Numbered from the stretch's first letter, positions 650 to 9,829 are shown. The stretch is 9,829 bases of DNA from Candidatus Poribacteria bacterium (GCA_014730235.1 WJIO01000114.1:1-9829), one strand, 5' to 3'. Program-made: numbers and translations. The notes: a model not told the origin generated them from the letters alone.

Positions 650-743
650 AAAATGGGCTTCGCTCATTAAGGGAAAAGCTGAATATGTTTCCTGAAAATT
701 GCTTATCCACTGATTTTCTATGAATAAATGTAAAAACAAATTT

Positions 744-820
744 TGTCATTCCTGCGAAAGCAGGAATCCAGTAGATCCGCATAAAGACTGTATTCCTGCT
801 TTCGCAGGAATGACAAGCTT
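744..820 (+). repeat. 77-bp intergenic inverted-repeat element, copy A (REP/MITE-like)
   Basis: Perfect 25-bp inverted arms (743-767 and 792-816, outer ends TTGTCATTCC / GGAATGACAA) surround a 24-bp spacer. Each arm is itself a hairpin: ATTCCTGC-GAAA-GCAGGAAT on the left and ATTCCTGC-TTTC-GCAGGAAT on the right, so either strand carries one hairpin with a GAAA tetraloop. The unit can fold as two small hairpins or one long one, like a bacterial interspersed mosaic element made of paired REPs. Its reverse complement matches copy B (3681-3757) with one mismatch over 77 bp, including the outer AAGCTT. It lies between the convergent TPR and URO-D genes. No transposase is encoded, so it would be non-autonomous. 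Confidence 0.9.
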
Positions 821-955
821 ATAGAAGTTTTTTACTTTTACCACATTTAACTCCGAAGAACCTTATTTTTTGCTTCAAACTGGTTTTAATTTTACTACAT
901 ATTTATTTTTATTAAGTCAAAATCTGGTTAATATTTAGCAAAGGTTCGGATTACC
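821..955. other. AT-rich convergent intergenic remainder
   Basis: The rest of the 365-bp gap between the TPR stop (590) and the URO-D stop (956) is AT-rich and holds no credible ORF, promoter or strong hairpin that I can see. The only structured parts of the gap are the palindrome at 633-649 and the inverted-repeat element at 744-820. Confidence 0.6.
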
Positions 956-1984
956 CTAATATACGCCATATTCAAAAGCCTCATCATACATAACAATTAC
1001 ATTTTCCGGAGGGAATTCATCCAGCATCAGGTCATGGCTGGGGGCCAGGCAGAAACCTCCCCCTGAGGCCATTATGTCAATCACCCGACGCACTTCTTTT
1101 TTGACAACTTCTGTCGTACCCCTTGCCAGTACGTTCTGGTGGTCTATACAGCCATGAAAAGTCAGCTTATGTCCAAAATCCGCTTTAAGTTCCAAAAGTT
1201 CCATACCTTTGGCGGCTACCTGGACGGGATTGAGGGCATCCAGACCTAAGTCTATCAGGTCGGGTATAAGTTCTCTTACAGCGCCGCAGGAGTGAAACAT
1301 GGTTTTTAGTTCATATTTTTCACCCAGTTCCAGAAATCGCTTTATGTGGAGTTTGCAAAACTCCCGCCAGTGTTTCAGGGAGATCAGAAGGGCCAATTGT
1401 GTTCCCATATCATCGCCAAAAAAGAATATATCAATCTTATCTCCCACAGCTTCAAAGAAACGCACAGCCAGTTCATAATAAAAATCGCTGACTTTCTGTA
1501 TAACCGCGTGCATAACTTCCGGGTGTGTATACATCTTCATGAAGAATTCATCCATACCCACCAACTCTGTAGCGTCAGTAAAAACTACTACCCAGGGCCC
1601 GCCGATGATGGCGTATTCTTTCCATGCCTCACATTGTTCCTCAATGCCTGCAAAGTCAAACCAATCGGGGGATGGCCAGTCGGGATAATCCTCCACCTGT
1701 TGTATAGTTTCAACCCCGGATAGAGGATGAGACATGGGTTGTCCATAATATACTCCATCCCGCTGGACTCCCCAGAAATTCTTATCATCCAAAGGCGGAC
1801 CTATATAATTTTCCCTGACTCGACGGAAATCAATATGCAGTCTCTGCATCAATTCCTCTTCATCGGATACTTTACATTTCTGAATTAACTTTTCCGTAAG
1901 ACCTTCGGAAGCGCCATACCACAGCGGCACTCGATCTGGCTCTTTATGATTAAATGTGGCTATTACTCTCTGTTTGCTGTTCAT
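956..1984 (-). CDS. URO-D superfamily protein, corrinoid/methylcobamide methyltransferase-like, with zinc signature
   Basis: 342 residues, a normal length for the uroporphyrinogen-decarboxylase superfamily (COG0407, MtaA/CmuA-like), which adopts a TIM barrel. The N-terminal family motif NHKEPDRVPLW is at residues 12-22. H231-S-C233-G and C312 (in GGGFCLAPSH) fit the His-X-Cys...Cys zinc-thiolate site of MtaA-type methyltransferases, which move methyl groups between a corrinoid and a thiol. I therefore infer methyl transfer rather than haem synthesis; substrate unknown. The ATG at 1982-1984 is preceded by GAGGT eight bases upstream. It starts 28 bp after the glpK stop on the same strand and is very likely cotranscribed with glpK. 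No partner corrinoid protein (MtaC-like) gene is in the window. A true haem-pathway HemE is less likely because the zinc-site cysteines are present. Confidence 0.92.
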   Translation of the reverse strand: MNSKQRVIATFNHKEPDRVPLWYGASEGLTEKLIQKCKVSDEEELMQRLHIDFRRVRENYIGPPLDDKNFWGVQRDGVYYGQPMSHPLSGVETIQQVEDYPDWPSPDWFDFAGIEEQCEAWKEYAIIGGPWVVVFTDATELVGMDEFFMKMYTHPEVMHAVIQKVSDFYYELAVRFFEAVGDKIDIFFFGDDMGTQLALLISLKHWREFCKLHIKRFLELGEKYELKTMFHSCGAVRELIPDLIDLGLDALNPVQVAAKGMELLELKADFGHKLTFHGCIDHQNVLARGTTEVVKKEVRRVIDIMASGGGFCLAPSHDLMLDEFPPENVIVMYDEAFEYGVY

Positions 1985-2009
1985 TTTGTACCTCGAATAA
2001 ACGGATTAT

Positions 2010-2030
2010 TGATCACGAATTACTGATCAC
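2010..2030. repeat. TGATCAC direct repeat at the glpK / URO-D junction
   Basis: Two identical TGATCAC heptamers (2010-2016 and 2024-2030) are separated by GAATTAC, one turn-and-a-half apart, each containing the palindrome TGATCA. One overlaps the last codons of glpK. It could be a small operator or chance; nothing else supports a role. Confidence 0.3.
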
Positions 2031-3491
2031 CTGATTAACCGCTTTATGCCAACCGGATAAAAGTTCTTTTCTCTTTTTGTTATCCATTTTTGGATTAAAA
2101 ATAACATCTGTTTTCCTGCAGGCTTCTATCTCTGATTTGCTGTTCCAGAAACCCACTTCCAGACCAGCCAGAAAGGCTGCGCCCAGGGCTGTAGTTTCAT
2201 TATACACAGGACGATCCACCTTAATGTTAAGTATATCGCTCTGGAACTGCATAAGGAAGTCATTGGCTGAAGCGCCGCCGTCGGCTTTCAGTGTCAATAA
2301 ATCCTCACCCAGGTCTGATCTCATAGCATCAATAACATCGGCTGTCTGGTATGCTATGGATTCAAGAGCAGCCCTGACCAGATGGCTTTTGCCTGTTCCT
2401 CTTGTTATGCCCAGTATGGCCCCTCTAGCGTCAGAATTCCAATACGGCGCGCCCAGCCCTGTGAAAGCCGGAACCATGTATACACCATCGGCGTTACCAA
2501 TTGTTTCAGCGATACCCTCTGTTTCAGATGCCGTTTCAATAAGACCCATTTCATCTCTGAGCCACTGCACAGCCGCCCCTGCTATAAAAACGCTGCCTTC
2601 CAGGGCATAAACCGGCTTATCGTCTACACTACAAGCCAGGGTGGTTAAAAGCCCATAGTTAGAAGCTACCGGCTTTTCGCCTGTGTTCAGCATTATGAAA
2701 CACCCTGTTCCATAGGTATTCTTTACAGAACCCACTTCAAAGCATGCCTGACCGAATAAAGCCGCCTGTTGATCCCCCGCTATGCCGGCAATGGGTATAC
2801 CATCCAGGACACAGCCACAGTCAACTGTACCAAAGCTTGCAGATGACGCATATACCCGGGGCATCATATTGGATGGGATATTCATCAGTTCCAGGAGTTC
2901 ATCATCCCATTCCAGAGAATGTATGTTAAAAAGCATGGTTCGGGAGGCATTGGTATAGTCTGTAGCGTGAAATTTACCGCCTGTAAGCTTCCAGACCAAC
3001 CAGCTATCTACTGTACCAAAAACAGCTTCACTTTTTCGCGCATTTTCTACATTATCCATTATCCAGGCAACTTTTGTGGCTGAGAAATACGGATCGATCA
3101 CTAATCCCGTTTTGGCTCTGATCTTCTCCGATAAGCCTTTTGATCTCAGCTCCCGGCACATATCCGCTGTCCGTCTGCACTGCCACACGATAGCTCTATG
3201 GAATGGCTCATCGCTTTTAGTGTCCCAGACTACAGCAGTTTCACGCTGGTTGGTAATCCCTATACCAGCGATCTGGTTAGCTTTTATTTCAGAAGCTTCT
3301 ACAGCTTCGCATGCAGTTGAAAGAGTTTTTTCCCATATCTCTTGTGGATCATGTTCCACCCAACCGGGCTTTGGGTAATACTGGCTAATCTCACTGTATG
3401 CTTTTGAAGCAATATTGCCATTTTTGTCTATAAGTAATACCGTTGTACCTGTTGTTCCCTGATCTATTGCAAGGATATATCTTTCTTTCAT
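2013..3491 (-). CDS. glpK: Glycerol kinase
   Basis: 492 residues (the E. coli enzyme is about 500), FGGY carbohydrate-kinase family; makes sn-glycerol 3-phosphate from glycerol and ATP in the cytoplasm. The ATP-binding start IDQGTTGTT is at 9-17. Glycerol-contact residues are all in place: R83-E84 (GITNQRET), W103 (AIVWQCRRT), Y135 (VIDPYFSATK), D240 (GIAGDQQAALFGQ) and F265 (YGTGCF). The DGGASANDFLMQ block is at 404-415. This set separates glycerol kinase from xylulokinase and other FGGY kinases. The segment before GIAGDQQ reads CVLDGIPIAG: it has neither the Arg of the E. coli fructose-1,6-bisphosphate loop nor the His phosphorylated by HPr in Firmicutes, so both classical controls may be missing (inference). 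ATG at 3489-3491 with GGAG eight bases upstream. First gene of a two-gene unit with the URO-D gene; no glpF or glpD is adjacent. Confidence 0.97.
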   Translation of the reverse strand: MKERYILAIDQGTTGTTVLLIDKNGNIASKAYSEISQYYPKPGWVEHDPQEIWEKTLSTACEAVEASEIKANQIAGIGITNQRETAVVWDTKSDEPFHRAIVWQCRRTADMCRELRSKGLSEKIRAKTGLVIDPYFSATKVAWIMDNVENARKSEAVFGTVDSWLVWKLTGGKFHATDYTNASRTMLFNIHSLEWDDELLELMNIPSNMMPRVYASSASFGTVDCGCVLDGIPIAGIAGDQQAALFGQACFEVGSVKNTYGTGCFIMLNTGEKPVASNYGLLTTLACSVDDKPVYALEGSVFIAGAAVQWLRDEMGLIETASETEGIAETIGNADGVYMVPAFTGLGAPYWNSDARGAILGITRGTGKSHLVRAALESIAYQTADVIDAMRSDLGEDLLTLKADGGASANDFLMQFQSDILNIKVDRPVYNETTALGAAFLAGLEVGFWNSKSEIEACRKTDVIFNPKMDNKKRKELLSGWHKAVNQVISNS

Positions 3492-3531
3492 ATCTGTATC
3501 TCCGTTCCATATTCAAAACTCAAACAATGGG

Positions 3532-3560
3532 AATATATCATAGGATACATGTATAGTCAA
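3532..3560 (-). promoter_or_regulatory. Sigma70-type promoter of glpK, with a palindrome in the spacer
   Basis: Read on the minus strand: -35 TTGACT (3555-3560), a 17-bp spacer, -10 TATATT (3532-3537). The predicted start near 3525 leaves a leader of about 35 bases before the glpK ATG. The spacer contains the perfect palindrome ATACATGTAT (3545-3554), positioned where a repressor dimer could block RNA polymerase. The promoter call is well supported by spacing and sequence; the operator is only a suggestion. Confidence 0.7.
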
Positions 3561-3680
3561 CGGATTTGTATATCAGAGATTATCAAAAATCTTCCAAGCA
3601 TAAAAGCACCTGTCTCAATTTAGTAGGTTAGTCACAATTCGGGAGAGCAAAGTTCCTGCTGAGCTTTTCCTTTTTTGTTC

Positions 3681-3757
3681 AAGCTTGTCATTCCTGCGAA
3701 AGCAGGAATACAGTCTTTATGCAGATCTACTGGATTCCTGCTTTCGCAGGAATGACA
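3681..3757 (-). repeat. 77-bp intergenic inverted-repeat element, copy B (opposite orientation to copy A)
   Basis: Arms at 3686-3709 and 3734-3757 are perfect 24-bp inverted repeats around a 24-bp spacer. The whole stretch is the reverse complement of 744-820 except for one base in the spacer (GCAG here, GCGG in the complement of copy A). It lies between the divergent glpK and DUF2284 genes, outside the predicted glpK promoter and upstream of the DUF2284 promoter. Together copies A and B frame the glpK/URO-D unit as inverted repeats about 2.9 kb apart. Confidence 0.9.
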
Positions 3758-3794
3758 GCATAAAGAGAGACAGATACAGAATAAAAAGTTTTCC

Positions 3795-3823
3795 TTGCTT
3801 AGAGGATACTGGTGTTATATAAT
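3795..3823 (+). promoter_or_regulatory. Probable sigma70-type promoter of the DUF2284 gene
   Basis: A consensus -10 TATAAT (3818-3823) stands 17 bp downstream of TTGCTT (3795-3800), a half-matching -35. A second TATAAT at 3832-3837 has no good -35 at normal distance. The leader to the ATG at 3873 would be about 43 bases. Together with 3532-3560 and copy B, this accounts for the 381-bp gap 3492-3872; I see no gene or RNA in the remainder (3561-3680). Confidence 0.5.
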
Positions 3824-3860
3824 CATACGCATATAATTTATAAGATTACATGTTATTTAT

Positions 3861-3866
3861 AAGGTG
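3861..3866 (+). promoter_or_regulatory. Ribosome binding site deciding the DUF2284 start
   Basis: AAGGTG is followed by six bases and ATG at 3873. The GTG at 3864 in the same frame is part of this site and has no Shine-Dalgarno sequence of its own, so the ATG is preferred. Confidence 0.6.
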
Positions 3867-7436: not shown

Positions 7437-7512
7437 TAAATTTATTTGTCTCTTCCGACTTGAGTGCGGAAATATAAAAACATTGTCTTATTGAGAAATA
7501 ATATCCTCAGCT

Positions 7513-7561
7513 TGTCATTCCTGCTTCAAGCTTTTTCAAAAAGCTTGAAGCAGGAATGACA
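7513..7561. repeat. 49-bp perfect palindrome sharing its ends with the 77-bp elements
   Basis: Two perfect 24-bp arms flank a single central C. The outer 12 bases TGTCATTCCTGC and their complement are identical to copies A and B, and the flanks AGCT and GC also match copy B. The inside differs: TTCAAGCTTTTT replaces the GAAA hairpin and the spacer. It is 77 bp after the asparaginase stop and could act as a strong transcript-end hairpin, but no T-run follows. It is best read as another member of the same repeat family with a swapped core. Confidence 0.88.
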
Positions 7562-7640
7562 GCCTGATAGAATTTTCATTTGCTAATGTCTCTTTAAGCA
7601 CTGCAACATCTGGTTTTAGTTAATTTTAGAAATATCAACA

Positions 7641-7783
7641 CCTATACTTTCGCTCTTTTTAAAAGACATAGTATTTATGCGCTTGTAGTAGTAGGGATAC
7701 GGCATGCCGTATCCCTACAAGCCGAAAACCCTCATGAAACCTGTATTTACCGTTTTGATATATAAAAAGTGCGAAAGTATAGG
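7641..7783. mobile_element. 143-bp MITE-like element with 20-bp terminal inverted repeats
   Basis: The left end CCTATACTTTCGCTCTTTTT (7641-7660) and the complement of the right end (7764-7783) agree at 19 of 20 bases. The interior contains a 28-bp palindrome (7691-7718) and no ORF. Size, matching ends and lack of coding sequence suggest a non-autonomous miniature transposable element. No clear target-site duplication was found: the flanks are AACA before and CAAA after, at best a 2-bp CA. With the palindrome at 7513-7561 it accounts for most of the 450-bp gap 7437-7886; 7784-7873 shows no gene or convincing promoter. Confidence 0.6.
7691..7718. repeat. 28-bp perfect palindrome with adjacent GTA triplication
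   Basis: The half GTAGGGATACGGCA is followed directly by its exact complement. The symmetry continues as GCTT...AAGC outside if the extra GTAGTA at 7685-7690 is set aside, so the left arm appears to have gained two GTA triplets by slippage. It lies in the middle of the 143-bp MITE-like element. Confidence 0.85.
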
Positions 7784-8870: not shown

Positions 8871-9829
8871 ATGCTGCCCAGAGAAAGAGTTATCAGTGTT
8901 ATAGAACATAAAAAGCCTGACAGAATACCTGTATACGGATGGGTTCGGGCTAATCTGGAAGACCAGATTAATGAGGCATTCGGCTCAGTAACAGCTTTTG
9001 AGGATAAATACGAATTCGACTTCGCCCATCTATTCGGCGGGCCTGGCCCTTATCCAGGTGAAAAATTGAAGGAAATAAGGGATAATAACGACGGCGTAAT
9101 AGAACCGAGAATGCTTCTGGATATTGAATTGACCGATCCAAACAATTCAGACGCCTATAATAATATAAGGGATCAGGTCAAGCATCACAAGGAAGAAAGA
9201 GGCCGGTTTGTTTATGTTCAAACGCCAGGTATATTTGAGTGTTTAAACGGGCCCTTTGGAATCCAGAACCATCTGACTTATCTGATGCTGTTTAAAGACG
9301 ACCTGCATCAGGTCTACAAACGCCAGGCCGAATGGAACCGGGATTTTGCCCTTAATTGCATTGATGCAGGGGTTGACATGGTTCATGTTTCCGACGACTG
9401 GGGAGCGCAGAAAGGACTCATGTTCAGCCCTGATATTTGGTGGCAGCTTATCTACCCATATCATAAGCTTACCTGTGACGCGGTTAAAGATCGCGGGGTT
9501 TATTTAAGCGTTCACAGCGATGGAAATGTCTCCCAGGTAATAGATGGAATAATCAAACTGGGTTATGACGTTGTTCATCCATACCAGGAATCAGCCGGTA
9601 TGGATTTATATGAATATAAGAATAACTATTCTAGCAATTTTGTTATTATGGGTGGTCTGGATGTTCAAACTACTATTGGCTTTGGCAAGCTGGATTTCTT
9701 AAAAAGCGAAATTAAGCGGGTATTGAAACTCTTTGCCGATGGTGGGCTTTTATACAGCACATCCCATTTTGTCCAGGATCACTGCACTATTGAGGAATTG
9801 ACATTTGCCTTTGATACTATATATGAAAC
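8871..9829 (+). CDS. URO-D superfamily protein lacking the zinc cysteines (3' end outside window)
   Basis: Open from ATG 8871, with AGGAG six bases upstream (8860-8864), to the window edge: 319 residues, probably missing the last 20-40. The N-terminus LPRERVISVIEHKKPDRIPVYG (in two halves around residue 12) is the typical URO-D superfamily opening, shared with the gene at 956-1984. Other family blocks are DAGVDMVHVSDDWG (165-178), H215-S-D-G-N and the MGGLDVQ barrel strand (260-266). Where the methyltransferase-type relative has His-X-Cys and a second Cys, this protein has H215-x-D217 and Y295 (GGLLYSTSH). It therefore probably does not bind zinc as MtaA does. It may be a corrinoid- or tetrapyrrole-associated enzyme of another reaction; no function is assigned. 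It follows DUF89 by 93 bp. Confidence 0.9.
   Translation, partial: MLPRERVISVIEHKKPDRIPVYGWVRANLEDQINEAFGSVTAFEDKYEFDFAHLFGGPGPYPGEKLKEIRDNNDGVIEPRMLLDIELTDPNNSDAYNNIRDQVKHHKEERGRFVYVQTPGIFECLNGPFGIQNHLTYLMLFKDDLHQVYKRQAEWNRDFALNCIDAGVDMVHVSDDWGAQKGLMFSPDIWWQLIYPYHKLTCDAVKDRGVYLSVHSDGNVSQVIDGIIKLGYDVVHPYQESAGMDLYEYKNNYSSNFVIMGGLDVQTTIGFGKLDFLKSEIKRVLKLFADGGLLYSTSHFVQDHCTIEELTFAFDTIYE

Follow-up and report, generated by a model that had tools for sequence, protein, structure and literature searches.

Two near-identical sequences in inverted orientation stand on either side of a two-gene glpK/URO-D unit in the window, a stretch of 9,829 nucleotides of Candidatus Poribacteria DNA that we analyzed at its full length. 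The arrangement raises the question of whether the pair, here called copies A and B, marks a gene segment that can flip or move. An earlier note on this DNA had proposed both: inversion of the whole segment by recombination between the copies, or its transport as a cassette. We found no support for A and B marking a special movable or flippable gene cassette. Very probably, each copy is the central hairpin of a miniature transposon (MITE) of a kind that has proliferated across the genome, the main family being ISL3-like and at least two other backbones carrying the same hairpins; A would be a chimeric element, B a hairpin without ends, and their position around glpK/URO-D a matter of copy spacing. 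As a pair they are nothing out of the ordinary among these very abundant miniature transposons; what is unusual is that backbones with no relation to one another have an exchangeable hairpin centre in common.

The inverted 77-bp pair

The repeat search confirmed the near-identity and the coordinates that the earlier note had given: positions 744-820 and 3681-3757 form inverted arms of 77 nt, 99% complementary with one mismatch and separated by 2860 nt, a pairing far above chance. The enclosed minus-strand unit was also as described and consists of a URO-D gene and a glycerol-kinase-type FGGY kinase gene. Each copy is made up of a 72-bp hairpin core and approximately 5 bp of flank. In both cores, arms of 29-30 nt enclose a 14-nt loop and form a 24-bp stem with four further pairs; folding as single-stranded DNA yielded -30 and -33 kcal/mol, with z values of -11.8 for A and -12.6 for B. 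The core comes close to a palindrome, so that A and B still show 85% identity when compared as direct repeats, and their orientation is defined only by the hairpin centre and a few bases. The coordinates of these and the other features discussed below are collected in the table.

Features of the window, with positions counted from its first nucleotide
Feature	Position	Strand	Description
Copy A, left arm	704..742	+	Dispersed 'family V' arm, not ISL3-type; six other loci, 82-91% over 32-39 bp
Copy A, hairpin core	744..815	+	72 bp, TGTCATTCCTGCGAAAGCAGGAATCCAG...CAGGAATGACA
Copy A, right arm	817..862	+	ISL3-type R arm, 80% over the full 46 bp; 167 matches in 87 loci
8 bp beside the copy A terminal repeat	863..870	+	TTATTTTT, position of a would-be target duplication
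URO-D family protein	956..1984	-	342 aa; PF01208; between A and B
FGGY kinase, glycerol-kinase type	2013..3491	-	492 aa; PF00370/PF02782; between A and B
Copy B, left flank	3619..3683	+	One other hairpin-bearing locus, 83% over 65 bp
Copy B, hairpin core	3686..3757	-	72 bp, inverted relative to A
Copy B, right flank	3758..3766	+	9-bp stub GCATAAAGA, the same 9 bp with which the ISL3-type R arm begins; unique DNA after it
Third element, left arm	7447..7506	+	ISL3-type subfamily, terminal repeat approximately GTCTCTTCCGACTTGAGTGCGG; BLAST match 7453-7506, 87%
Third element, hairpin	7513..7561	+	49 bp, TGTCATTCCTGCTTCAAGCTTTTT...; same system
Third element, right arm	7562..7637	+	Family II arm; other loci match at 97% over 76 bp

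Abundant hairpin modules and the ISL3-like family

We carried out the genome-wide search for copies and the comparison of their flanks that the earlier note had proposed as a check. The source genome assembly comprises 5.53 Mb in 451 contigs and is 91.6% complete. A 22-mer from the hairpin arm has 263 exact matches in the whole assembly (150 forward, 113 reverse), and its reversed control has none. When whole elements were sought, 40 of the 741 candidate places were scored, and full-length relatives with 92-99% identity were found among these. A sample of 1.82 Mb contained 272 hairpin modules, one per 6.7 kb with a median gap between neighbours of 3.1 kb, the density being an upper estimate because many of the sampled contigs were picked for holding copies. 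Since copies thus stand a few kilobases apart genome-wide, two of them at a distance of 2.9 kb around a gene pair represent typical spacing and are to be expected here. The control stretches 880-950, 3500-3600 and 3820-3863 of the window had no matches elsewhere in the sample.

The modules are strongly intergenic. In an earlier 0.67-Mb part of the sample, only 4 of 123 lay inside open reading frames and 119 between genes, even though coding sequence makes up 86% of this part. The numbers of modules in tandem, divergent and convergent gaps were roughly proportional to the intergenic space on offer. A preference of the transposons for A+T-rich targets would explain why they land between genes. 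All but three of the 272 hairpins have a recognised arm on at least one side, which suggests that the hairpin is not mobile by itself. This observation bears on the reading of the hairpins as REP/BIME-type repeats dispersed by the action of a RAYT (REP-associated tyrosine transposase), which their small size, palindromic form, intergenic position and occurrence in hundreds of copies would fit. Unlike REP/BIME, however, the hairpins have no RAYT association and sit within elements that have transposon ends and target duplications. The assembly holds a single Y1 transposase gene, which is not flanked by these hairpins and which, by our own reading rather than by a RAYT model score, resembles IS200 TnpA. 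We therefore consider a spread by RAYT barely credible.

MITEs with transposon ends account better for the flanks. In the printed flanking sequences the hairpin mostly lies in the middle of a larger unit with outer inverted repeats. The terminal inverted repeat of the main family, denoted family I, reads GGTTCTTCCGGGTTTAGTGTGG; its half-sites, scored over the 16-bp inner part with at most one mismatch, number 532, compared with none for the reversed control. Among 28 elements bounded by such repeats in the first 388 kb, 17 are flanked by an 8-bp duplication matching in at least seven of eight positions (expected 1.2), and the same 28 elements yielded no duplication signal at 4-7 or 9-11 bp. 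A larger set of 97 distinct elements contained 58 with a match of this quality, the duplications being approximately 90% A+T. In the 1.82-Mb sample, 100 of 169 elements have retained seven or eight matching positions of the target duplication, which supports the recent spread suggested by the earlier note. Family I elements lack a transposase gene and fall into size classes of 120, 141, 164 and 205 bp, the first three being accounted for by a 46-bp arm on each side of a 28-, 49- or 72-bp hairpin. Many family I elements without a duplication have a common right flank, AAAGTTTTCACGGACATAAA (L121:1998-2117, L121:12652-12760, L209:4422-4581 and others), which suggests a larger composite element containing the miniature one.

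For three annotated ISL3 elements from plasmid records, the ends read GGTTCATCCGGCTAAAGCGTAC, GGTTCATCGCGCTTTAGCGTGA and GGTTCTTCGCGGGATCTTGGGG, and the 8-bp duplication is perfect in every case; GGTTCTTCCGGGTTTAGTGTGG agrees with the first of these ends at 15 of 22 positions, counted by eye. Given ends of the matching type and the 8-bp duplications, family I as a whole is therefore ISL3-like in end sequence and duplication length. Like known ISL3-derived MITEs, its members are short, non-coding and present in many copies, start their terminal repeat with GGTTCNTCCGG as do the ISL3 elements measured here, and produce exact, A+T-rich 8-bp target duplications; unlike them, they have their hairpin centre in common with other MITE families, and a parental transposase was not found in the assembly. 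Presumably family I was mobilised in trans by an ISL3-type transposase. The assembly holds three ISL3 transposase genes, all of them partial: two at contig ends (C342 and C236) and a C-terminal fragment on C391. Ends could be read for two of the three and are related to those of family I, not the same. The C391 fragment was discarded as the direct parent, as the end after its stop codon, GGATTCATCCGGG..., is related but different. No intact ISL3 transposase with ends matching GGTTCTTCCGGGTTTAGTGTGG and no ISL3 zinc ribbon were found in this fragmented assembly. As a separate observation, contigs C342 and C236 (L092, L093, L061) carry partial ISL3 and IS200-type genes among foreign-looking neighbours and, as an impression, may be contamination, which is estimated at 4.8% for the assembly.

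The GGTTCTTCCGGGTTTAGTGTGG-type terminal-repeat pattern gave only zero to two one-mismatch matches in each of 38 other genomes of the phylum, and the miniature family has therefore expanded in this lineage. The exact 28-bp hairpin was not found in viral contigs, and no Rfam family matched within the window.

Hairpin centres shared by unrelated backbones

Automatic clustering of the flanks defined the arm classes, and copies without ISL3-type arms turned out to be flanked by other dispersed arms. Family II comprises nine copies, with a perfect 5-bp duplication in six of the eight that are measurable (expected 0.0). Family III comprises 20 copies, and a 5-bp duplication is present in 9 of 15 (expected 0.14). 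An identical 28-bp hairpin occurs in families I, II and III, and hairpins of 49 and 69 bp occur in both I and II. The hairpin is the interchangeable centre of at least three families of non-coding miniature transposons. Both arms could be classified in 230 copies, of which 195 belong to a single family and 35 are mixed, that is, chimeras. Some of the chimeras, such as L227:4827-4898, which runs from an ISL3-type arm into a family III end, resemble the product of a nested insertion and subsequent loss between two hairpins.

Exchange of hairpins and arms between elements would most simply proceed by recombination, by deletion between nested copies or by replication template switching through the hairpin. 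Because at least three unrelated MITE families have the hairpin in common at their centre, it is conceivable that the hairpin acts as an exchange hub: arms and centres would be swapped through it by recombination or template switching, which would generate new mobile chimeras, rearrangement junctions throughout the genome and possibly also small inversions, or conversion where two copies lie close together, as A and B do. We put this broader proposal forward tentatively.

The elements of the window reflect the same mosaic structure. The third element (7447-7637) is a chimera, since its left arm is ISL3-type and its right arm belongs to family II. Copy A is a chimeric, partly decayed element. 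Its right arm ends in a degenerate terminal inverted repeat, CCACATTTAACTCCGAAGAACC, at 841-862; as read from the sequence, TTATTTTT next to this repeat has no partner on the other side of the copy. Copy B is a hairpin whose transposon ends are no longer recognisable; its left flank (3619-3683) contains no ISL3-type terminal repeat. Neither copy has the full set of family I characters: A retains one degenerate terminal repeat and B none, and a target duplication was seen at neither. They were counted as hairpin modules, not as intact elements, and their membership therefore rests on the hairpin together with partial arms. Two further repeats were seen close by. Positions 640-690, beside copy A, contain another dispersed repeat with 13 matches in 12 sampled loci (for example, 92% over 49 bp) and a CCCCCTTATTAAGGGGGA-like sequence. 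Positions 7685-7730 hold a separate palindrome, GTAGGGATACGGCATGCCGTATCCCTAC, similar to one beside a hairpin at L221; it probably represents yet another repeat family.

That A and B face opposite ways does not necessarily mean that a segment was inverted or that the elements were inserted in opposite directions. Relative to the arms, the loop of the 28-bp hairpin reads GAAA in 24 copies and TTTC in 22, and the spacer of the 72-bp hairpin points one way in 11 copies and the other way in seven. The spacer thus also flips on its own, and cores in opposite orientation are what would be expected by chance. Spacers are known to become inverted through template switching at short inverted repeats (PMC8604942), and this may have produced the spacer flips seen here. 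The two orientations of the spacer in our copies resemble that process; the published cases differ in that they concern changes of 2-5 bp in yeast genes, whereas here a 4-nt loop and a longer spacer of a repeat family are involved.

With a single difference in 72 positions, A and B rank among the closest three when all 946 hairpin pairs are compared, but a copy found on a different contig likewise differs from A at one of 72 positions. Among 72-bp pairs within 3.5 kb of each other, three of four lie above the 96th similarity percentile, in a test chosen after seeing the data; no elevated similarity of near pairs was present in the other hairpin classes or in the arms. The ongoing gene conversion that the earlier note had read from the near-identity is thus weakly suggested, on small numbers, as a local process between nearby 72-bp hairpins.

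Apart from one Neisseria paper with a related GTCATTCCCGCGAAAGCGGGAAT, no paper in the literature collection searched gives these sequences. The neisserial dRS3 repeat, ATTCCC(N8)GGGAAT, is present in about 700 copies and is modular with larger intergenic repeat units (PMC3898611). The hairpin core described here, ATTCCT(N8)AGGAAT with exchangeable arms, is similar to it; the organism and the flanking units are different, and the palindrome lies centrally in elements that have terminal repeats and are flanked by target duplications. A further difference is that no IS110/Piv-type gene was found in this assembly, for which reason we rejected such a recombinase acting on dRS3-like palindromes. 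Interchangeable hairpin centres across unrelated backbones with different target-duplication lengths make these elements a clear case of modular miniature transposons. They would bear on the evolution of such elements, on the origin of mosaic intergenic repeats like those of Neisseria and on a possible role of short hairpins in driving genome rearrangements of uncultured bacteria.

The glpK/URO-D segment

A near-identity of 77 bp offers enough length for homologous recombination. A and B could on this ground act as sites at which RecA or a dedicated recombinase inverts the 2.9-kb glpK/URO-D segment in the manner of phase variation, and both the closeness of the pair and the 35 chimeras among the 230 classified copies, which attest recombination or exchange somewhere, are in line with it. 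However, the several hundred other copies stand in both orientations without any link to this segment, so that no pair is special, and they largely undo the proposal of an invertible segment or cassette. Flipping about A and B would, as read from the flanks, rebuild no recognisable intact element, and the assembly yielded no recombinase of the IS110/Piv type. A reciprocal exchange of target duplications, sought among 41 elements without duplication within one third of the genome in what is a weak test, gave a best candidate no better than the maximum that 60 of 200 shuffles attained, and hence nothing above the null. Inversion about A and B is accordingly very unlikely.

Two inverted elements that bracket a pair of genes could also be the remains of a compound transposon that brought glpK/URO-D in as a cassette. 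The gene pair is indeed not conserved: no glpK lies next to the relatives of the URO-D protein in other phyla (65-72% identical) within the DNA examined, and in a same-order genome, the nearest compared, the most similar-looking place is a match of 66% over 77 residues. Against such an import, the GC content of the two genes is 0.45-0.46, the same as that of their neighbours. Outer terminal repeats and a duplication around the whole, as expected of a compound transposon, were not seen at A and B. The two copies have outer flanks that bear no relation to one another, no terminal repeat stands at either outer end and the sole remaining one, that of A, faces inward; the segment was therefore not carried as a compound transposon by these elements, and we regard the cassette reading as highly improbable. 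With A and B read as hairpin centres of MITEs, the part of the proposal that is specific to glpK/URO-D becomes ordinary.

Two observations concern the coding content of the window. Positions 24-437 hold three units of a 138-bp tandem repeat encoding TPR units, with 82% and 64% identity to the first. The URO-D protein (956-1984; compare 8871-9829) belongs to a large family expansion: it has no match in most of the phylum, 40 matches in the same-order genome and 54 in the source genome.
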